Part shown: positions 3,014 through 14,289 of the stretch, piece after piece
How the letters are laid out: the number at the start of each line of letters is the position of its first letter
Position numbering within the stretch: position 1 is the stretch's first letter
From: Methanothermobacter sp. MT-2
GTDB lineage: Archaea; Methanobacteriota; Methanobacteria; Methanobacteriales; DSM-23052
Reading direction: 5' to 3'
DNA length: 64,000 nt
NCBI GenBank assembly: GCA_003584625.1
Contig: AP017647.1
Coordinates: 1,350,603 to 1,414,602, forward strand
Notes under the pieces: generated by a model
Told to the model about the DNA's origin: nothing
What the model saw: the letters and a program-made list of their open reading frames with translations, nothing else
Database searches by the model: none
Position numbers and translations under genes: made by a program

Positions 3014-3365
3014 TTACAAATCGAAATTTAGTGTCTAAACATTCTGGAAGGGTAAGATTTAACTTTGATCGAAATCTTACAAATAATGTAAATAATAAGT
3101 GTGGACTGTTACAGGAAAATATTGTTTTATAAGGTTTGGGGATGCGCCGCCTAAAATTCATCTCTTGACAAAAAAAATAAAAGGTGAATTTATGGACAAA
3201 ACAACAAAAGCCCTTTTCATAGTCTGTCTTGTTTTAGTAGGAGCCCTAGGATTCACCACAGGACTACTCCTCCAAGAAAAACCAATCCACCCATCCAAAA
3301 CCACAAAAAATACAACAATCACGAATAACCCTAACAAAACTACAAGTAATCTAAACAATACTAAC
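3014..3365 (+). repeat. Direct repeat copy B: promoter plus N-terminal cassette
   Basis: Second copy of the 352-base unit at 1,255-1,606, in the same orientation. It ends at the same codon of the open frame as copy A, after the Asn/Thr stalk. The almost perfect identity, including non-coding parts, points to recent duplication or gene conversion. Confidence 0.9.
3124..3133 (+). promoter_or_regulatory. TATA box in cassette B
   Basis: Same gttttataag box and same distance to the start codon as in cassette A, so both genes should be transcribed from equivalent promoters. Confidence 0.45.
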
Positions 3366-3614
3366 ACTAAACCAGGGAATGAATGGAACGTGTCATACTG
3401 TCCATATTGTGGCGCTCCATTCAAAGCCACAGTATATGAGGCCTATTTAATAGACGCCAATGGAATATTACATAGACGCTACTACAGGATCTATGAATGC
3501 GGCCACCGAGTTTATATGGGAGAGAAAACATCACAACTTTATGCAATGACTCCAGAAGCTCAAGAGTCATGGCGAGAAGAAGTAAGAAGGAATGGAGGAG
3601 AGGTCTACTATTAA
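3192..3614 (+). CDS. Membrane-anchored stalk protein with zinc ribbon, paralog B
   Basis: A 140-residue protein whose ATG and ribosome binding site are identical to paralog A. It has the same 58-residue N-terminus (one membrane segment and Asn/Thr stalk). The tail differs: CPYCG near residue 68, then a YEAYLIDANG stretch, a single later cysteine in YECGHRVY, and a charged C-terminus. The later knuckle is C-G-H rather than C-x2-C, so metal binding may use histidine or be lost. The swapped tail behind a shared leader suggests modular exchange. Function unknown. Confidence 0.7.
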   Translation: MDKTTKALFIVCLVLVGALGFTTGLLLQEKPIHPSKTTKNTTITNNPNKTTSNLNNTNTKPGNEWNVSYCPYCGAPFKATVYEAYLIDANGILHRRYYRIYECGHRVYMGEKTSQLYAMTPEAQESWREEVRRNGGEVYY

Positions 3615-3649
3615 ACCTGGCCAGATCTTAAACCCCAAAAAAGAAAGAG

Positions 3650-3667
3650 TCTCCATTTAAATGGAGA
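3650..3667. terminator. Palindromic hairpin between convergent genes
   Basis: tctccatttaaatggaga is a perfect 18-base palindrome followed by an AT-rich stretch. It lies between the ends of the zinc-ribbon gene and the permease gene and could end transcription from either side. Confidence 0.4.
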
Positions 3668-3738
3668 ATTTATCAAGGCAAATGAACTATTCCTTCAAAT
3701 GATACAGGACCCTCTACATTCGCATTTCCTGGAATTCA

Positions 3739-4542
3739 CTATATATTTATGCCAAAGTAGAGTAGTATGTACTTCAATGAAACATAGAGGAATACAATCC
3801 CAAATATAGCTTTTAAAATGTTTGGTTTTATTTTTTTGATTACCCTTGGCCCTATCTGCGCGCCTAAAGATGTTCCAATACCAAGTGATACTGCAAATAC
3901 TAAATTCACATAATTTCCCAAGATTTTAAGCAAGCCACCAATAAATGCTAGGGGTATCATAGCTGCTAGAGAAGTGCCCATGGTAATATAAACCGGCCCT
4001 CCGAAAAGGTAGATCATACCAGGTACTAAAGCATATCCTCCGCCCAAACCTGCTATTCCAGTCGCAATACCTACGAAAAACCCAAACACTGCCTTTTTCC
4101 AATTCTCTCCCCCGATCTCGTCACCTTCCCTCATGGGGGGAGGTGAAAACACTCCCTCCTTGATCATTCTTATGGCTGGCCATAAGAAGATCAGTCCTAA
4201 TATCAATTCAAGGGTTAGAAGGTAATTGTAGAGGACTAAAAACGAAAATATGAGGGATCCAACTATAACACCAATTGTGCCTCCAATCCCTAACCAAAGA
4301 GCTGTCTTTTTATGAACATTTCCAATCCGCAAGTGTCCATATGCCCCAGAAATTGTGGTGAATATCACGGCAACAAGAGTTGTTCCAACAGCAATAGGCA
4401 AGTGGTTAATATCCCCTTTATATATAATAAAAAAGAGGATCGGTAGCATTAATGCACATCCACCAGTACCAATCAAACTTCCCAGTAATCCTGCTAAGAT
4501 ACCTACAACAAACAAAAATATTACTAACCCAATTTCAATCAC
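3739..4542 (-). CDS. TauE/SafE-family permease
   Basis: A polytopic membrane protein of about 267 residues with two homologous halves, each starting with a glycine-rich helix (GILAGLLGSLIGTGG near the start, GIATGIAGLGGGYALVPG in the middle). That is the hallmark of the TauE/SafE (UPF0721) anion exporter family. A hydrophilic cytoplasmic loop separates the halves (PPPMREGDEIGGENWKK). The frame opens with GTG TTG GTG; the GGGGTGA ribosome binding site best fits the third codon, hence 4,542 rather than 4,548. The substrate is unknown; relatives move sulfite, sulfoacetate or other organosulfur anions. It stands alone, so context does not help. Confidence 0.85.
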   Translation of the reverse strand: MIEIGLVIFLFVVGILAGLLGSLIGTGGCALMLPILFFIIYKGDINHLPIAVGTTLVAVIFTTISGAYGHLRIGNVHKKTALWLGIGGTIGVIVGSLIFSFLVLYNYLLTLELILGLIFLWPAIRMIKEGVFSPPPMREGDEIGGENWKKAVFGFFVGIATGIAGLGGGYALVPGMIYLFGGPVYITMGTSLAAMIPLAFIGGLLKILGNYVNLVFAVSLGIGTSLGAQIGPRVIKKIKPNILKAIFGIVFLYVSLKYILLYFGINI

Positions 4543-4548
4543 CAACAC

Positions 4549-4906
4549 TCACCCCTTATAACATATTTATCCTCCGAATATCCCTTCACGCCAAATTCAA
4601 TGCATAAAATGCTCTATTGAAATCTTACTCCAACTAAAGACCTTCTTTTTGGCGATGGAAATTTTTAAGGGTCCTGATTTCAATCTTCAATTAAAAAATT
4701 TTTTATATCGAAATATTTAAATATTCCGGTTTTAATCTTGGAAAAATAAAACCCCCCATAAAAAATTACGTGGTAGAGGGGAGATCCCCCAAATTTGTGT
4801 AAATAGAGCAAAGACTTTGCCATATCATTTAAGCTTTTCTTCATAGATGTATTTTTCCTGCTACAAATCTTCGGTTTCTTCTTCAATCTGAGCCCACAGT
4901 TAGAAT
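4549..4906. other. Intergenic, AT-rich
   Basis: Holds the leader of the permease gene on the left. On the right, an AT-rich stretch with a C-rich/G-rich pair (accccccat ... agaggggagatccccc) could form a hairpin after the methyltransferase gene. A 76-codon frame at 4,680-4,910 overlaps the methyltransferase stop, but its low-complexity product is unconvincing. Confidence 0.35.
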
Positions 4907-7900
4907 TCACCTTAGATGGCGAATTAGCTCATTTATTAAATTCCTCGTAATTTTTAGTGATTTTAGGTTTGTAGAATTAATTTTTTTTAGTTCTAGTTCT
5001 TCTTCTTCACTTATATTATCCAAAGCCATCTTTTCTTTTAAAATTATCCATTTATCTACTTTGAGCGGCTTTATTTTGTCTTTAAGGGATGAGATTATTG
5101 TTGGATATTCAGTACAGTCGTTAGTATGATAATAGGTTTCATCAATTAAAAAATCTAAAAATTTGTAGTCTAGTTGATTTTGTTCAGAAATAACATCAAA
5201 GAAATAATAGTCCATTAAATTGAATAACCATCCTTCGATTTTTCCCCCTTTACGTATTACAGAATCATAATTTATGACATAGTTTATTTCATCACTAGTT
5301 AATGAATAGAGTCTTCCGAGCAGTATGTCAATTAAATCAATGATTATTTTTACCTTTGATGTCTCGAATCTTTTTTTTTCGGGTTCAAAGTTATCAAATA
5401 AAAATTTCATTAGTTTTGATGAAAGCAAATCCAACAAATCTGATGTTTTTTTAATATCATCAAGATCGGGAACTGGAAGATTTTTCATTATATCGCTGTT
5501 CATGTGTCTTCCATCACCATATATCCTTAGCCACATATAATACAGATTACTATTGATAATAATTAAAAAAAAGTTGGCAAATTCTTTTTTTACAAATAAA
5601 TTTTTAATTTCGCTGCTTTCGTATGGTTTTTTATTCCAGGCGTTGTACCAATAATTTCCGCTTGTTCTTATCCATATTTCTTTGCCAGTGTTAATTAAAT
5701 CATTCAGATTATATGTAGTTTTAACTATCTTTTTTAGTATTTTTGTATTTTCTCCTATTTTGGGTAGTCTATGCTCCTTGGAAAATTCATTACTTGATAA
5801 ACCTGAATTTGTCAGTATATAGTCATTAGCAGAGCTGTATTTGATTTTAGAAAAATTTGGGGTTTCTCTAAACATTTCTGATGTGTAGAATTTACAATTA
5901 GATCCTTTTTTCTTTTTTTTCATAAAAATTAGCGAAACTGAAAGGGTCATCCCCTCAAAAAATTTGCATTTGTCTCTATCAAATGTAGCAATAAAACATT
6001 CAGCAAAATTCTTATATATTGCATCTCTGGTACTGGAGAACTCAGTGCTGTATGTTATAGCCGCAGTTATAACAAATGTTAAATTACCAAGATCAGATAA
6101 TAAATCTATGCATCTTTCCACAAAAGTTGAAGAAATATCTTTGAGGTTTTCATGCCTAGCTTTAAGCAGTTTCTTTTCAGTATCTTTAAGAATGTTTCCA
6201 TAGGGAGGATTACCGATTATTAAATTAAATCCACTTTTTCCCAAAAATACTTCTGGAAAATTGAGTATCCAATGGAAAGCATTTATTTGATTTACTTCAT
6301 CAATATTTAACCCATATTCTTCTGCAAACTTCTCATCGAACTTACTCTGGAATGTTTTGTCTATCTTTTCAATGAGATCATTAATCGCTGAAGCCTGTCT
6401 GGAGTTCAGCGATACGATTAAGATAGAAACAAGTTTTTCTTTTATATGGAGTACTCTCTTTATATCCGCCCATTTAAATTTTTTTTGGCTGAAAATGAGA
6501 TTTAGGTCATTTATATCGCTTTTAATATCCCCCTCTAATCCAAGACCTTTACTGCAAGATTCTAAATACTCCATAAGTTCATCAAGGACGTTTATCTTAT
6601 TGACAATATACTTTTTATCTTTCGTTTGGGCTCCTGAAAATGAAAAGAGATCTATTTTGTCCTTTCCAATGCTATCGTAACCTATTAGTGAGTTTCCTTC
6701 TCTGAGGTTGAAGTGAACGTTGGGGAATCTTAAAAAAACGTCACTGTCCTTCTTTGACGGCTTGAAGTGTTTTGCTATACCTAAGAAAAATCTTGCTCTT
6801 GCAACCTTGAGTGCTGCTGGGTTCTTGTCAACACCATATATGTTCCTTGAAAGTATGATGAAGAATTTCAAGTAAAGGTTGAAATGGTCATCATCTATCT
6901 CAAGAAGGTCAATGTTCTTTAGTTCACCTTTTTCATCTGTAACAGTGATTTCAAAGCCGCCGAGCCCAAGCTCAGCAGCTCTGTTTCTTAATTTCTGGTA
7001 TATCTCAACAAGAACATCTATGGCGCTTTCCAAGAAATGTCCTGAGCCAACAGCAGGATCAAGTATCTTTATATCCCAAAGTTTATTGAAAAGAGACATG
7101 AGGGTATCTGGATCTGCTTTTTCAATTAAACTTTCGATGTTTGTGTGATCAGTTTCCAGTGATTCAAGAAGGTAAGGTTCAATTGTTTCCCTTGCGATGA
7201 ATGAAGTTATTTCCTCAGGAGTGTAATATGATCCTGTTTTTTTCTTTACATCTGCAGTTATCAGCTTTTCATAGAGAGCACCCAGCACATATTCATCAAT
7301 GTCACCTTCTATCCAGTCCCTGCTCTCAAATAAGTTTAATATGGGTATTCCTATTTTTATTTTCTTCGGATTTTCGTTTAAGATGATTTCCGTGATATTT
7401 TCCTGATAAAAGCACTTGTCAGGTATATCCACAATTTCGAATTCTTCCTCACTACCCATGAATATAGCAGGCCCTATAACCACAACTCTTCCTATGTGTT
7501 CATCCTCGTAGTACTGTTCCCTTTCGTTGTCACGTATCTTGTCAAAGAAGTATTCAAGGAACTCCTTGTAACTTTTAAATCCACTCTCATCAAGACGCTT
7601 CTGAGAAAGCTCCCTGAACATGGTTATGAAGTATTTATCATCATTGTTAAAGAATCCAAGTACCTGTAAATACCAGAGAGTCATCATCTGCATAAGGAAG
7701 TTATCAGCAAATTCTATGCGTTCGTTCTCTTCGGATATTCCCTTAATATTTTCAGCAAGATACTCTCTTGTATTCTGAAAGAGAATGTAGAACTCTTCGA
7801 TAATGTCCTTTCTATCGAAGAGCGTATCAAAATTAGTCTGTGAGGGATTAATTATTGCCTTTTTAATTTTATTGACAAAGCTTGTATTTATTTTGTTGAG

Positions 7901-8188
7901 TGACCTCATTATATGCTTATTTTTACGATGGTCCCTGATTAGAAGTTTTTCACCGTAGAGAATGAATGAAATTCTTGGAGTGTAACCACTTATAGGTGCG
8001 CGATAATTCTTTATTGATGTAAATTCTCCCCTATCTTCTGCTTCAATGAATAAGAAACCTTCATAGATGTTGAGTTCTGGTTCACTTAATTCAGGTACTA
8101 AATATAGGTCATAAGCCCTACCGTTTATCTCGATTTTTTTTGAATCATAGTTTCTAAGACATCTTTCAAGAGTTCTTATTATATCCAC
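4907..8188 (-). CDS. Eco57I-type N6-adenine DNA methyltransferase of a defence system
   Basis: A 1,093-residue protein. Near residue 320 it has the TGSYYTPEEI entry motif of type I/IIG methyltransferases, near 381 the SAM-binding DPAVGSGHF motif, and near 661 the catalytic NPPYG motif of N6-adenine enzymes. The first 300 residues and the last 350 are unassigned; the last part may recognise DNA. Translation starts at GTG with GAGGGG upstream, and the start overlaps the end of the helicase gene by 23 bases, so the two are coupled. The size and long N-terminus resemble BREX PglX and DISARM DrmMI enzymes. It probably marks host DNA at a specific site so that the partner helicase spares it. I see no nuclease motif in this chain, but one could be hidden. 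Confidence 0.85.
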   Translation of the reverse strand: MDIIRTLERCLRNYDSKKIEINGRAYDLYLVPELSEPELNIYEGFLFIEAEDRGEFTSIKNYRAPISGYTPRISFILYGEKLLIRDHRKNKHIMRSLNKINTSFVNKIKKAIINPSQTNFDTLFDRKDIIEEFYILFQNTREYLAENIKGISEENERIEFADNFLMQMMTLWYLQVLGFFNNDDKYFITMFRELSQKRLDESGFKSYKEFLEYFFDKIRDNEREQYYEDEHIGRVVVIGPAIFMGSEEEFEIVDIPDKCFYQENITEIILNENPKKIKIGIPILNLFESRDWIEGDIDEYVLGALYEKLITADVKKKTGSYYTPEEITSFIARETIEPYLLESLETDHTNIESLIEKADPDTLMSLFNKLWDIKILDPAVGSGHFLESAIDVLVEIYQKLRNRAAELGLGGFEITVTDEKGELKNIDLLEIDDDHFNLYLKFFIILSRNIYGVDKNPAALKVARARFFLGIAKHFKPSKKDSDVFLRFPNVHFNLREGNSLIGYDSIGKDKIDLFSFSGAQTKDKKYIVNKINVLDELMEYLESCSKGLGLEGDIKSDINDLNLIFSQKKFKWADIKRVLHIKEKLVSILIVSLNSRQASAINDLIEKIDKTFQSKFDEKFAEEYGLNIDEVNQINAFHWILNFPEVFLGKSGFNLIIGNPPYGNILKDTEKKLLKARHENLKDISSTFVERCIDLLSDLGNLTFVITAAITYSTEFSSTRDAIYKNFAECFIATFDRDKCKFFEGMTLSVSLIFMKKKKKGSNCKFYTSEMFRETPNFSKIKYSSANDYILTNSGLSSNEFSKEHRLPKIGENTKILKKIVKTTYNLNDLINTGKEIWIRTSGNYWYNAWNKKPYESSEIKNLFVKKEFANFFLIIINSNLYYMWLRIYGDGRHMNSDIMKNLPVPDLDDIKKTSDLLDLLSSKLMKFLFDNFEPEKKRFETSKVKIIIDLIDILLGRLYSLTSDEINYVINYDSVIRKGGKIEGWLFNLMDYYFFDVISEQNQLDYKFLDFLIDETYYHTNDCTEYPTIISSLKDKIKPLKVDKWIILKEKMALDNISEEEELELKKINSTNLKSLKITRNLINELIRHLR

Positions 8189-11100
8189 AGTACCAACCCC
8201 TCATTTTAGATTCAACTTTAAGCGAGGCATCCCCAAGAACTTCTTTAGCAGTAAGATAATCATGAAGTGAACCCACTATTTTATTTACATCGTTCATTTC
8301 AATTTCATTACCTCGCATTCTGATTAGACCCTTACCTATTAAATACGATTTTATTTTTCTAGAATATGATCTGGATGGCAGCCTTGAGATGGTATTATAT
8401 ACGCGCCTAAATTTATCCATGTCCGATATTTCTTCTCTTTTTAATAATAATGCATTGGAAAGGTCTCTGAGGAATCCTCTCTGGGTTTCAGTTACACTTT
8501 TAAGGTGATCAATCACTTTATCACTATTCTTTTTGAATTTTTCAAGGCCCTGAATTGCTTTATCAACCTTATAGGGCTTAGAACTCCTTGATTTTAGGAG
8601 TTCAAGAAGCTTAAGAGGAGTTGACTCCTTAATCTTCCCATCTTCTAATGTGAGAATCTGTTTTTTTACTTTATATGGCCCTTTGTAGTACTCATAAATG
8701 GCTGTGAGCCCTACATCATTTTCTATGTATGTGTAGTAATTCCCATCCATTTTTTCAACTTCAGCAAAGTCCTCTGGTGTGTATCCTAATTCGTACTGTA
8801 TTGTGTTCAGCAGTTTGTAATCCTCAAGCTGCTCTCTTGAAATTTTGCCAGGTATGAAACCTTTAATCTCATTTGAAAGTCCATATTCTTCAAGCTTTTC
8901 CATTGGAATTTTTGATAGGTCTTTGATCTTCTCTCCGAATGTTTCTATGTTGATCTTCTCTTCTGGGGATAAGATTCTAACGTCTTTACCGACAACAAGT
9001 GTTATGTCCTCTATTTTTTCGTTAAGTTTGTTTAATATTCCAACCATGACCTCTATCTCCCCAGAGGGCATGTAGTTAACAACTGTGATGTCCTTTTCAT
9101 TTCCTATCCTGTTAACTCTTCCAACTCTCTGGACTAGGATCATGGGATTCCATGGGAGGTCATAGTTCACAACTGCATCTGCATCTTGGAGATTGATACC
9201 TTCACTGAGTGCATCGGTTGTTATGAGAATTTCGATGTCCCCTGATTTTTTTACTTCATTCCAGCCATTATTGGAGCCTGGTGAGAATCTTTTTATATAG
9301 TTTATCTTTGTTGATGTTTCTGTTTCACCAGTTACCAAGCCTATTTTCAGTCTATTACCATCTTTTAGCCAGGTGTGCAAGTCAATTTCATTTTTTATCC
9401 AGTATCGCAGGTTTTTATAGAGGTAGTAAGCAGTGTCCTTGTACTGGGTGAATATGACAATCTTCTTCCCTTTAAGACTAGGCACATTAATCTCTGCTGA
9501 TTTGAATTCAGGGTTTCCGATGATGTTTTTGAGCGCTCTAAGTTTTGGATCATCTTTGTATGTGAAGATTGGCATCTCTATTATATCTTCTTTCTGTAAG
9601 GGTATTTTTCCAAGGGTTTTAAACTCGGACCTTTCTATTTCCTTGAGATTGTCAATACTGTTGAGGATTTTATCCATTGTTCTCAGGTCTTTTTCCATTA
9701 AATCCAGTATTATTTCAATACCTGACTTCAAGGGATTTGTTCCTGATTTGGCATAACCCTTAATTATATCTATTATCCTGTCAAATCTTGTAACCTCTTC
9801 TTCGAGGCCATATTCATCCATTATTTCATCGAGATCCTTTTTTATATATGCCTTTTCCATTGCAGCTTCCAGAACTCTTTTGAATGTGGTTCTGTTCCAT
9901 GTTTCCTGGTTCTTGAATAAGTCGTAGAAAGTCTTTTCTTTTTCGTATATCCTCCTAATTGTTGTTTCGAAAGGGTATATGCCGCTTTCAAGTCTTTTTC
10001 CCAGTAAAAGTTTCAGGAGGTCTGCTATTTCTATGAGTTTCATTTCAGGTTCTTTAACGCTTATTTCATCATCTTCAAAAAGAATGTACCTTGAGCCATA
10101 GAGTTTTGTGTGTTCAAAATTGAGCTCTGGCAATGTTTCCTTGAGTAGTTCTATAAACTCTAGGTATTCTTTCTTGTAGAATGCGGAATATTCGAGGCTA
10201 AATGGCTGGGGGTCTTTAAATATAAGTGGTTTTCCGTTTATCTGGAGGTCCTTGAATTGTTCCAGAATGTATTTCCTTGTTCTGAGGACCATTATTTCGT
10301 CCAGTATTTCATTTTTTATTTTGTTAGCTATCTTTTTGAGTTCTTTTTTCTTGTGAGGATCTGGATCTATTTCTATTTCTTTTTTCAGTTTTGTGTATTG
10401 ATTTATGAGTTCATCCACTTCTATGCCCTTCAGTCTGAATTGCATGAATGTGTCATCCATGAAGAGGCGTATAAGGTTGTATACGTCTCTTATTGAGTTA
10501 TTTATTGGTGTTGCGGTTAAAAGGAGGAATTTATTTTTCTCACCTGTTGTTTTTCGTTGTAATTTACGGATATTTTTCCATCTTTTAGTGTTGCTATTTC
10601 TGTATTTGTGTGCCTCATCAATCACATAGATGTCATATTCGTCTGCTATCCTTTTCAGACTCTCCTTTTTGAGATTCTGAAACTTCCCAAGGGACATGAA
10701 TCCTATTTTTCCAAGTGTTTCGTTTTCTATTATTTCGTATGCGCTGCTGAGTTCATTGTTGCTGGTTATCAGTTTTTTTTCCTGGCCTTGGAAGAAGTAT
10801 TCCTGGTTTATCAGGAGGTCTTCCCACTGGTTTATGAGTGATGGGGGCAGTATGAGGAGTGCTGATGGTTTTTTATTCTCTGGTTTCCATGTAGGGTGTT
10901 TTCCGTTGATGTATTCCTCGATTATTGCTGCTGCAAGGAAGCTTTTTCCAAGCCCGACAGAATCTGCCAGTATAACGCCGTTATAGGTGTTTAGGGAGTT
11001 TATGGCGTTCATGACCCCTATTAACTGGAATTCCATGAGCACGTCTTTTTTGAGGATGTTTTTTACTCTTCCATCGAACCAGTGGTAGACGAGGTACTTG

Positions 11101-11777
11101 AATAGGAGTTCTGGGTCTATTCTCTGGCCCATCTTTGGTTTATGGTCTTTTTCTGTTACTCCAGAGTAGTCTATGATTTTCAGCATGTCCTGACTGAAGT
11201 CTGTGGCTTCTTCCCAGAGATCATCGAACCACCTGTTAAGATATAAAACATCTTCTCTTGAGGTTAGAGCTACGTTAAGTTCTTTGTTTTTGGTAAGACC
11301 TTTTTTTGTGAAATTGGATGAACCAACAAGTGCCAGTCCGGGGGACTGATATTCTGATGTTGGATTTGTAAGAAATAGATATAATTTCGCATGGAGTTTT
11401 GATTTATCAAATAGTTTGACTTCTATTATTTCTTCTGCGATGAGTTTTCTGAGGAGGGTTATGTTTCTTATTTGTTCTTTTGTTATGTTCTGTTCTTGAA
11501 GTTCTCCTATCATTTTGTCCTTAAAGAGCTCTCTAAGTTCATGACCCTCTGTAATTTCTTCACCTGTTTGTTTGGTGGTTTCATCTCCCATCACTATTTT
11601 CAGAAAGGGTTTTTTTTGGAATTCTGCCGGAAAGTCGTCCTCTATGAGTGAGAATCCCGTTATGAAGAAGTAACCTATTGCAAATTTGGCTTCTTCACAG
11701 TTTTTCAATTGATCTTTAATAAGTCTGACAACTTCGCGGTTTTCAGTATTATCCATGATTGAGGGGCCAAAATCCAT
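8166..11777 (-). CDS. PLD-nuclease/SNF2-type helicase fusion of a defence system
   Basis: About 1,203 residues. The ATG at 11,777 has GGAGGG at ideal spacing, so the 16 upstream codons are not used. The N-terminus is a phospholipase-D-like nuclease domain (LHAKLYLF near residue 129, GSSNFT near 150). SNF2-type helicase motifs follow: ADSVGLGKS (Walker A, about 272), DEAH (about 387), TATP (about 422), and SEGINLQDADAV with QRVGRVNRIGN (about 886). It lies first in an operon with the adenine methyltransferase. DISARM uses a SNF2 protein (DrmD) and a separate PLD protein (DrmC); here both lie in one chain and DrmA and DrmB are absent. Likely role: motor and nuclease that act on unmodified invading DNA. 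Confidence 0.85.
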   Translation of the reverse strand: MDFGPSIMDNTENREVVRLIKDQLKNCEEAKFAIGYFFITGFSLIEDDFPAEFQKKPFLKIVMGDETTKQTGEEITEGHELRELFKDKMIGELQEQNITKEQIRNITLLRKLIAEEIIEVKLFDKSKLHAKLYLFLTNPTSEYQSPGLALVGSSNFTKKGLTKNKELNVALTSREDVLYLNRWFDDLWEEATDFSQDMLKIIDYSGVTEKDHKPKMGQRIDPELLFKYLVYHWFDGRVKNILKKDVLMEFQLIGVMNAINSLNTYNGVILADSVGLGKSFLAAAIIEEYINGKHPTWKPENKKPSALLILPPSLINQWEDLLINQEYFFQGQEKKLITSNNELSSAYEIIENETLGKIGFMSLGKFQNLKKESLKRIADEYDIYVIDEAHKYRNSNTKRWKNIRKLQRKTTGEKNKFLLLTATPINNSIRDVYNLIRLFMDDTFMQFRLKGIEVDELINQYTKLKKEIEIDPDPHKKKELKKIANKIKNEILDEIMVLRTRKYILEQFKDLQINGKPLIFKDPQPFSLEYSAFYKKEYLEFIELLKETLPELNFEHTKLYGSRYILFEDDEISVKEPEMKLIEIADLLKLLLGKRLESGIYPFETTIRRIYEKEKTFYDLFKNQETWNRTTFKRVLEAAMEKAYIKKDLDEIMDEYGLEEEVTRFDRIIDIIKGYAKSGTNPLKSGIEIILDLMEKDLRTMDKILNSIDNLKEIERSEFKTLGKIPLQKEDIIEMPIFTYKDDPKLRALKNIIGNPEFKSAEINVPSLKGKKIVIFTQYKDTAYYLYKNLRYWIKNEIDLHTWLKDGNRLKIGLVTGETETSTKINYIKRFSPGSNNGWNEVKKSGDIEILITTDALSEGINLQDADAVVNYDLPWNPMILVQRVGRVNRIGNEKDITVVNYMPSGEIEVMVGILNKLNEKIEDITLVVGKDVRILSPEEKINIETFGEKIKDLSKIPMEKLEEYGLSNEIKGFIPGKISREQLEDYKLLNTIQYELGYTPEDFAEVEKMDGNYYTYIENDVGLTAIYEYYKGPYKVKKQILTLEDGKIKESTPLKLLELLKSRSSKPYKVDKAIQGLEKFKKNSDKVIDHLKSVTETQRGFLRDLSNALLLKREEISDMDKFRRVYNTISRLPSRSYSRKIKSYLIGKGLIRMRGNEIEMNDVNKIVGSLHDYLTAKEVLGDASLKVESKMRGWYCGYNKNS

Positions 11778-12037
11778 CACTATCCCTCCAGAAGGATTAA
11801 TATAACTCATATCTATGTCGATCATATGGGTTTAAATTTTCTATATCCTTACATTAGCTTCACTATGGCTCCTCTTATCATCAATCCCCTCACTTTTCTA
11901 TCAATTCTACCATTTTTCTTTGACCTTTTAGCAATTCCACTAAATGCTCCCCTCCAAGGATATCACTATTATATGTTCTTTGTTTACTATTTTTTTTGTT
12001 GCAGGCGTTCATCCACTTAGGGAATGTCAAATAACAC

Positions 12038-12047
12038 AAATATATAT
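12038..12047 (+). promoter_or_regulatory. TATA box before the HhH/nuclease-like gene
   Basis: aaatatatat lies about 45 bases before the ATG at 12,091, placing a start site near 12,068. This supports the internal start codon over the longer open frame that begins upstream of the box. Confidence 0.45.
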
Positions 12048-12090
12048 GACACAGAATAAAATTCAATGGAATAAAAGGTTGTGGATTATT

Positions 12091-13161
12091 ATGGTTGAGT
12101 TAAATGAGAAACAAAAAAAGAACTTGAAAGATTATTTTAACAAGCTTTGTCCAACTTACAAAAAAAGTGGAGAATTTGAAAAAGATAAAAATGTGGTTTC
12201 AGATCGTATATCCTATTTTAGAGGGGAGCTTCCCAAAAAGATAGATGATATTTCAGAGATTGACCTTGTAGAAATACTGTCGAATACATGGGCTATTAGC
12301 AGAGCCTGGGGGAATGTACAGTATCGTGCTCAGAAGATCATAGCAGACAACGGGATCAAAAAAATCAAAGAAGCATTTAAGATACTCCTGGATACTTCCA
12401 TTCCACCACATAAAAGATATGGAAAAGTTCTTAAAATGATCAAAGGATTAGGACCAGCCGCAATAACAGAGATCCTAGCATACATTCATCCACACGAATG
12501 CTCCATATGGAACAGAAAAGCCAGAGAAGCGCTGGACATCCTCAACATAAGCATCATAAACACCAAGAAATACAAGCTCACGCCACAAGAATACAAAACT
12601 TACAACAAACTTGTAAAAACCATCCAAGAAGAACTAAACTTTCAAAAGTCAAAAATGGAAGATATAGGCTTATTCCTCACTGATTTTTTCTTTTTTGAAC
12701 TAAGCCAACAAGGTGCAAAACCAGAAAAACCAAAAGACAACGGCTTTGATCATGATGAAATAAAGGATTTAACTCAAGATATAGGGTCAATGTTAGGTTT
12801 TGAAGCCGATACAGAGGTTCAAGTTGCCCATGGCGCAAGAGTAGATGTGGTCTGGAGCGCCAGAATAGGAAACCTTGGAATAATAAATTATGTCCTCGAA
12901 GTCCACAAAAGAGGATCCATCGACAGCCTACTAATGAACCTACAAAAAGCAAAAAGCAACCCAACAGTACAGAAAGTCGTCGCAATATCCGATGAAACAC
13001 AATTAGAGAAAATAAAAAGAGAATCCGAAGGACTCCCAGAAGAATTCAGACGCGACCTAACATTCTGGCCAGTTGAAGATGTTTTGAAGGTTCATGAGAA
13101 TCTTGAATTGGCTATGAAGACAATTGATAATCTTAATTTGACTCCGGAACCATTCAAGTGA
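12091..13161 (+). CDS. HhH-domain protein with PD-(D/E)XK-like C-terminal domain
   Basis: A 356-residue protein. The ATG at 12,091 is chosen because a TATA box lies inside the longer frame. The N-terminal half is helical with a helix-hairpin-helix core (MIKGLGPAAITEILAYIHP, about residues 113-131), like DNA glycosylase-type domains. The C-terminal half has G-ARVDVVW, then YVLEVHKRGS, which fits the D...ExxK core of restriction-endonuclease-like folds, then an alpha/beta end. It faces away from the helicase-methyltransferase operon and shares its upstream region, so it may be the third part of the same system, or a separate restriction or repair protein. I do not recognise an exact family. Confidence 0.6.
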   Translation: MVELNEKQKKNLKDYFNKLCPTYKKSGEFEKDKNVVSDRISYFRGELPKKIDDISEIDLVEILSNTWAISRAWGNVQYRAQKIIADNGIKKIKEAFKILLDTSIPPHKRYGKVLKMIKGLGPAAITEILAYIHPHECSIWNRKAREALDILNISIINTKKYKLTPQEYKTYNKLVKTIQEELNFQKSKMEDIGLFLTDFFFFELSQQGAKPEKPKDNGFDHDEIKDLTQDIGSMLGFEADTEVQVAHGARVDVVWSARIGNLGIINYVLEVHKRGSIDSLLMNLQKAKSNPTVQKVVAISDETQLEKIKRESEGLPEEFRRDLTFWPVEDVLKVHENLELAMKTIDNLNLTPEPFK

Positions 13162-13166
13162 TGACA

Positions 13167-13309
13167 TTATTTTTCTTTGGTGGATCCTTCTATTGCTTTT
13201 CTTTTGGTCAGTTTTTCAAGATGATCTCTAGTATGCTCCTGTTTTGTAGTCTTTCTACTTCGTTTTGCAAGTGGCTGACTTCCTTTTCTCTTTTTTTGAA
13301 CCCCTTCAT
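13167..13309 (-). pseudogene. Decayed coiled-coil gene fragment, copy 2
   Basis: From an ATG at 13,309 the minus strand encodes MKGFKKREKEVSHLQNEVER and on to ...ILEIILKN before a TGA. The homology to copy 1 at 384-500 then continues in another frame as KLTKRKAIEGSTKEK. It is a frameshifted relative of that fragment, lying just behind the end of the HhH/nuclease-like gene. Confidence 0.5.
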
Positions 13310-13522
13310 AAGTTTTAAATAAAACCTCTTAGGGTAACTTTAATAATTTACACTAATAAAATTCAAAAAGTGCCGCCGCATCTAACCTTTGAGGGAGAAT
13401 ATAGCACAAGATAAAGTTGATGTCCACTCCCAAGAAAATGTCTATAGTATAAGTGTGAATCTTTACATAAAAATAGTATTATACGGAAATTTTTGGATAA
13501 TATTGGCTTTGGGGGGGTTTTG
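13310..13522. other. Spacer and promoter of the thymidylate-synthase-like gene
   Basis: A TATA-like cataaaaata near 13,466 would place a start site near 13,493. A run of seven G (13,511-13,517) followed by ttttg forms the ribosome binding site before the ATG at 13,523. Nothing else is seen. Confidence 0.4.
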
Positions 13523-14289
13523 ATGGGTTTTATTAAAGGTGAAAGTATTGGGGAAGCCTATTTCAAGGCTTACAAGGCAATATTAGATGCCAAATCACCC
13601 CACTGGTACTTGATGGTCCATATTTCACGGCCAATCTTGGACAATTCAATGAAGATTTCTTCCTTGGATGTTACTGATTGGCTTAAAGTTATAAACGTGG
13701 AAAAAAGGATATATGATGCCTTTATCAATTTCAAATTTTCTAAAAAAGATGAATGGACCGGCGGCTACTCAGGCAAGGACTGGATAAACGGCAGAATACA
13801 AGACCTCCTAAACGAACAAGGCTACTATAAAAAAAGCCTAACAGAAGAATTTTCCCTCGACCAAATCCAAGAAGTGGAAAAACGGTTATCTGCCAGGGAT
13901 AAAAATGGCAAAAAAATGCATGGAGGCTCAACAAACGCCATGGTATGCATACTATTCTCACCAACCAAGGACCTAAAAGCCGCATGCAGACCATGTCCAC
14001 GAGCAGAAGGAGTAAAATCCCTAACCCAATCGATTTCAAACCAATAAAAGACAAATTGAACCTAATGGCGGTTTTCAGGAGCCAATCCTTTGATACAAAG
14101 GCATATGGAAACTTCATCGCACTTGCCATACTACTCCATAGGATGTGTCAGGCTGCTGGATATAAGCCAGGGGCTATTGTATCCACAGCTAATAAAGTAA
14201 CATTTGATGGCCATAAGAATGATCTCTATAAACATTTAAGAGCAAATATCGTGGGACATATCACTCATCAGCAGGCATTAGATATATAA
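13523..14289 (+). pseudogene. Thymidylate-synthase-like protein, frameshifted
   Basis: Starting at the ATG at 13,523 (G-rich ribosome binding site), the first frame runs to AACRPCPRAEGVK. The homologous continuation IPNPIDFKPIKDKLNLMAV, then RSQSFDTKAYGNFIALA and YKPGAIVSTANKVTF, is in the next frame. The break is at a run of four A (14,014-14,017); one extra A gives a single product of about 255 residues. The motifs resemble the C-terminal half of thymidylate synthase (RPCP, DFK, LNL-A--RSQ, the later helix), a distant archaeal ThyA-like family. The catalytic role is unproven. Pseudogene, phase-variable gene or sequencing error. Confidence 0.6.

Follow-up and report, generated by a model that had tools for sequence, protein, structure and literature searches.

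The window analysed here is a stretch of 64,000 nucleotides (contig AP017647.1, positions 1,350,603 to 1,414,602) from the complete 1.52-Mb genome of the Methanothermobacter-like archaeon Methanothermobacter sp. MT-2. It contains three adjacent genes, encoding an Eco57I-type methyltransferase, a PLD-SNF2 fusion (the helicase) and, in divergent orientation, a protein with a helix-hairpin-helix (HhH) half and a PD-(D/E)XK half (the third gene). We consider it probable that these are two independent neighbours: a minimal two-gene ATP-dependent restriction-modification (R-M)-like pair, formed by the helicase and the methyltransferase, and a separate, widely exchanged nuclease. The PLD-SNF2 protein and the methyltransferase do form a recurrent pair, to whose system the third gene does not belong. 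The original prediction, made from the sequence without database searches, described three genes with the two large ones overlapping by 23 bases. The open reading frames (ORFs) found here agree with it in their coordinates (Table 1; the third ORF spans 11944-13161 on the + strand).

A recurrent pair of helicase and methyltransferase

In Pfam, the helicase matches PLDc_2, RE_NgoFVII (a PLD domain of the NgoFVII type), SNF2-rel_dom and Helicase_C. Its best PADLOC model is C3a139 'HKD+Snf2' (PDLC01075) with 517 bits, and the next family is DrmD with 120 bits. The methyltransferase matches Eco57I and N6_Mtase in Pfam, and in PADLOC the type IIG models (147 bits) score ahead of DrmMI (96 bits). At 517 and 147 bits to their best models, chance is excluded for both proteins. 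The catalytic motifs that were checked are all intact, i.e., H145-x-K147 ... GSSN171, GLGKS, DEAH, TATP and GRVNR in the helicase, and DPAVGSG at 377 and NPPY at 660 in the methyltransferase.

The pair was searched for in plasmids and in one phylum. Each pair protein was compared by tblastn with 72,556 plasmids. Of the 33 best plasmid helicase matches, at least 23 have a related methyltransferase nearby, at a distance of about 8 kb or less (the two match lists were compared, and the Thermococcus region was examined separately). The hosts are haloarchaea, methanogens, Thermococcus and cyanobacteria. The pair regions read closely include those of Methanothermococcus okinawensis, Haloquadratum, Halobaculum, Halorubrum, Natrinema, Thermococcus, Microcystis, Nostoc, Limosilactobacillus and a Prevotella. 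In a methanogen of another genus (G135), the order is identical, with the SNF2 gene followed by the methyltransferase gene after a gap of 40 bp (L128 12983-16162 and 9880-12942). No helicase relatives were found in viral contigs with a single query.

The trees of the two proteins, built from 13 loci, agree better than permuted trees (Mantel Spearman rho 0.49, p 0.0014), and both group the window with methanogens. All 13 pair loci have retained the PLD motif HxK...GS(S/A)N and Walker A, and conservative variants of helicase motifs II and III occur in a few of them. A loss of catalytic residues among relatives, which the original prediction had named as speaking against it, is not seen in the PLD domain of these loci. 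The pair helicases tested at other loci likewise have C3a139 as their top PADLOC model. Given its recurrence in plasmids and G135 and the correlated trees, the predicted pairing of a nuclease-helicase with an adenine methyltransferase is well founded. A predicted nuclease-bearing translocase conserved together with a methyltransferase, as expected of an ATP-dependent R-M system, is what we observe here.

The methyltransferase resembles the type IIG (Eco57I/MmeI type) enzymes in its core and in its long C-terminal region, which is comparable in size with the region that houses the specificity domain in type IIG enzymes. Over its first ~120 residues, the methyltransferase can be aligned with stand-alone IIG enzymes of methanogens, in their nuclease region. 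However, type IIG enzymes carry nuclease and methyltransferase sites in one chain, and the ExK motif ('VIELKGS' or 'ELKGS' in the stand-alone methanogen relatives) is missing from the aligned window and G135 methyltransferases. The best reading of these alignments is that the methyltransferase is a type IIG-like enzyme without a recognisable nuclease motif, and, read simply, DNA cutting may have been handed over to the helicase partner. At three haloarchaeal pair loci (L019 13804-16112, L020 17596-19947 and L127 16447-16833), methyltransferase fragments lie alongside the intact gene, which suggests turnover of the specificity gene.

The third gene and a probable exchange of cassettes at its site

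Scanning the genome collection for the third gene gave 113 relatives, of which 80 were kept, and 78 genome loci were analysed. The relatives are mostly from gut Clostridia and Bacteroidales, with some from archaea; none were found in viral contigs. Apart from the window, a PLD-SNF2 neighbour exists at a single one of these 78 loci (L028, Chloroflexi), and when 38 third-gene genomes were searched in full for PLD-SNF2, one weak match appeared. The third gene is absent from the plasmid pair loci examined and from the methanogen G135, and it is present without the pair in G002, from the same phylum, and on the Methanothermobacter tenebrarum plasmid pRMAS01. Homologues of the third gene thus hardly ever co-occur with the pair, which is largely the finding that the original prediction itself had named as speaking against its trio.

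The neighbours of the third gene are often R-M genes, among them HsdM, HsdR and Eco57I-type methyltransferases. Such a gene lies within 4 kb at 35 of the 78 loci, immediately adjacent at 25 of them, compared with about 0.5% of genes beyond 6 kb. At the other 43 loci no R-M gene was recognised within 4 kb, in some cases because of short contigs. In two Methanothermobacter relatives the third gene stands head to head with an MBL-fold gene (pRMAS01, L015 9139-11828, and L012 2598-5230), and a coiled-coil gene after it and a NERD-like gene downstream complete a recurring island. In Thermoflexus (L024 2049-11056), an operon contains a DpdE-like helicase, a 1659-residue Eco57I-type methyltransferase and a third-gene homologue. 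This helicase was rejected as a pair member, as it is DpdE-like at 571 bits. The helicase adjoining the Natronosalvus homologue, which has an in-frame stop, is not a PLD-SNF2 relative either.

The history of the site can be followed in the sister genome G004. G004 and the window are collinear, at 97%, between a point 5.5 kb upstream and position 3028, and they match again at 11846-11954 and 13073-13300. After 3028 the window contains TauE, the methyltransferase and PLD-SNF2, whereas G004 contains two genes that read as HEPN-like from their sequences and a 1206-residue type IIG gene. The first of the later matches, between SNF2 and the third gene, corresponds to the first ~32 codons of the G004 IIG gene and is frameshifted, and the second covers the end of the third gene (30 codons) together with its downstream flank. 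The equivalent of 11955-13072 is missing in G004, i.e., the third gene was lost there. Comparison of L013 9703-10042 in G004 with 11846-13300 in the window therefore reveals a reciprocal loss: in G004 the IIG gene is whole and 30 codons are left of the third gene, while in the window the third gene is whole and 32 codons are left of the IIG gene. From these stubs, it is most likely that the IIG and third genes stood head to head in the ancestor and that the line of the window acquired the pair afterwards. Most likely, then, the pair is a swapped-in cassette that replaced a type IIG gene, with the third gene at the site before it. The G+C content of the methyltransferase gene (33%, against 38% for the window) fits a recent arrival.

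For the third protein, Pfam yields only a weak match, to an OGG-like HhH model, and a sequence search of the PDB gave no real match. However, its AlphaFold model has a predicted local distance difference test (pLDDT) score of 91. Foldseek searches of the PDB with this model find archaeal OGG for the N-terminal half and NucS, AF1548 and MspJI for the C-terminal half, with high probability but none reaching E 0.001; the matches were assigned to the halves from the secondary structure of the model. Matches in a viral structure library include proteins with the restriction-endonuclease fold. The N-terminal half is thus similar to OGG and other HhH-GPD glycosylases (PF21790; M. jannaschii OGG, 3knt), and the C-terminal half, which has the core fold of PD-(D/E)XK nucleases, to NucS (2vld) and MspJI (4f0p). 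Aligned by hhalign with HhH-GPD proteins from the genome and its relatives (E 1.6e-4, probability 51%), the third protein has Ala in the place of the catalytic Lys of bifunctional glycosylases and Asn141 in that of the catalytic Asp, so that neither residue is conserved. Asn141 is invariant in 41 homologues. In the same homologues D252 and E270 are invariant, position 272 is H or Q, K273 is unconserved and K286 is nearly invariant. The predicted fusion of HhH and nuclease therefore stands, but the 'D...ExxK' motif ascribed to it is really D252 ... E270-x-H/Q272. It is possible that K286 substitutes for the PD-(D/E)XK lysine. The simplest reading is a DNA-reading, non-excising glycosylase domain fused to a nuclease. 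No named family for such a fusion exists in Pfam, NCBIfam or PADLOC, and a literature search for glycosylase-fold restriction enzymes found nothing usable.

Known systems and alternative readings

The PLD/HKD plus SNF2 architecture of the helicase is common to C3a139 and to the HKD+SF2 helicase of the PbeABCD and CxC-ABC systems (PMC10853773, PMC6459918). These systems also have a CxC ABC ATPase and a DndE-like protein, neither of which is recognised beside the window pair. The parent system of the C3a139 model was not traced in the papers searched, which gave nothing usable under the model name. The BREX-related (BR) type 2 or DUF499 systems (PMC12839542, PMC7641849), with a proposed R-M-like action, combine an HKD-Swi2/Snf2 fusion helicase, as found in the window, with an N6-methyltransferase. 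However, neither DUF499 (PF04465), the anchor ATPase of BR systems, nor PglZ (PF08665) of BREX has a match in the complete genome, although both profiles matched their controls; identity with BR type 2 is therefore rejected. DUF3780 has no match in the genome, and the control genomes gave none either. Hma in PADLOC consists of an m5C methyltransferase and an ATPase next to a helicase (PMC8565338), whereas the window methyltransferase is of N6-type and the locus contains no ATPase.

DISARM class 1 (DrmD, DrmMI, DrmA, DrmB, DrmC) has the SNF2 helicase, adenine methyltransferase and PLD nuclease activities in common with the window pair, and ARMADA includes a pair of a BrxHII-like helicase and a PglX-like methyltransferase (PMC12458937). 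The pair could thus be a DISARM-like or ARMADA-like system in reduced form, which keeps out or processes entering DNA but does not cut it at specific sites, a reading that the shared activities, the shared ARMADA layout and the secondary DrmD and DrmMI matches favour. We find it quite unlikely. In the window, PLD is fused to the helicase, and the top models are HKD+Snf2 and type IIG rather than Drm. The NCBIfam DrmD model gives the helicase a score of 133 against a cut-off of 610. Neither drmA nor drmB (helicase; MZB/DUF1998) is found among the window neighbours, as originally predicted, and the only MZB protein of the genome is ~650 kb away. With DUF499 and PglZ also lacking, the locus is by membership not DISARM, BREX or BR type 2. 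Of the two options first offered, a reduced DISARM-like system is thus disfavoured, and a restriction type fits in so far as the pair looks like an R-M-type system and no established name was found for it.

A single three-gene system, in which the HhH/PD-(D/E)XK protein would be an accessory nuclease or sensor of the pair, appears very improbable. It is suggested by the adjacent, divergent arrangement in the window and by the Chloroflexi contig, where the PLD-SNF2 gene follows the third-gene homologue directly downstream with no gap. The sister genome, with a type IIG gene in the place of the pair and a stub of that gene retained in the window, argues against it, as do pairs without the third gene and, in G002 and pRMAS01, a third gene whose neighbour is an MBL-fold gene, the pair being absent. 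Some observations nevertheless weigh against two independent neighbours, one of them a minimal pair. At least two loci, the Chloroflexi contig and the Thermoflexus operon, join a third-gene homologue to a helicase, so that the two may cooperate functionally. Haloarchaeal and cyanobacterial pairs often include additional genes that lie between the two or to the side (nucleotidyltransferase, SLATT, TIR, DUF262), and the description as minimal and two-gene may not apply at every pair locus. Host relatedness is partly behind the agreement of the pair trees and inflates it, and the trees differ in places. Finally, the nuclease loss is read from the alignment, as the structure model of the methyltransferase is poor (pLDDT 45) and was not used.

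For the third gene, it could be speculated that it founds a modification-dependent restriction class, in which a dead OGG-type domain flips and reads a modified or damaged base and the PD-(D/E)XK domain cuts, and which, in archaea and gut bacteria, moves among R-M loci of the type I, IIG and PLD-SNF2 kinds. We regard this as doubtful. That it serves as a nuclease in DNA repair, or as an orphan type II-like endonuclease, and reads no modification is somewhat less unlikely. In the Foldseek results, the C-terminal half comes close to NucS and to a number of type II enzymes, and the E270-V-Q of bacterial members equals the E-V-Q pattern of the BglII active site, which has Gln at the lysine position. 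The 43 loci without a recognised R-M gene point the same way, but the 35 loci with one do not. Nor do the patchy spread, the carriage on plasmids and the deletion in the sister genome resemble housekeeping repair.

Possible mode of action and features of the locus

We suggest that the methyltransferase would read a target sequence and methylate adenine in the DNA of the host. When invader DNA is unmethylated, the methyltransferase itself, or a complex, would recruit or license the SNF2 translocase, whose PLD domain would then cut. As there is a single HxK...N motif per chain, the PLD domain would act in dimeric form. The third protein may cut DNA at modified or flipped bases, or back up resident R-M systems. 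The 23-bp overlap likely couples translation of the PLD-SNF2 and methyltransferase genes. For the third gene, homologues favour the ATG at 12091 over the longer ORF.

Table 1. Coordinates of the pair, the third gene and the exchanged segment in the window.
Feature	Position	Strand	Evidence
Eco57I/PglX-like N6-adenine DNA methyltransferase, 1093 aa	4907..8188	-	Pfam Eco57I 8e-22; PADLOC type IIG 147 bits
PLD(HKD)-SNF2 fusion, 1219 aa, predicted nuclease-translocase (restriction subunit)	8166..11825	-	Pfam; PADLOC C3a139 517 bits
Methyltransferase/PLD-SNF2 overlap, 23 bp	8166..8188	-	
Third gene, 356 aa, HhH-GPD (OGG-like) + PD-(D/E)XK	12091..13161	+	AlphaFold, Foldseek, hhalign, 41-sequence alignment
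Frameshifted N-terminal stub (~32 codons) of type IIG gene, intact in sister genome G004	11847..11940	-	92% nucleotide identity to L013 9703-9813
Variable segment: TauE + methyltransferase + PLD-SNF2	3029..11845	.	G004 there: two HEPN-like genes + type IIG gene

Two further features lie in the surroundings. The ORFs at 1340-1807 and 3099-3614 (+) have an identical N-terminal half of ~90 residues and different, zinc-ribbon-like C-terminal halves, and are a partial duplication with an exchanged end. At 13493-14289 (+), a gene is split over two frames; its second half is weakly similar to methanogen thymidylate synthase (E 0.0013), and a stretch of 83% identity lies in G003 (L185 18968-19866).

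The comparison with the sister genome shows that an apparent three-gene system can arise by chance from cassette exchange. By appearance, the pair is among the leanest ATP-dependent restriction-modification layouts, and it is possibly tied to the interconversion of BREX-related and type IIG systems. The third family, if it is a true dead glycosylase reader, would be a new route to recognising modifications of foreign DNA.

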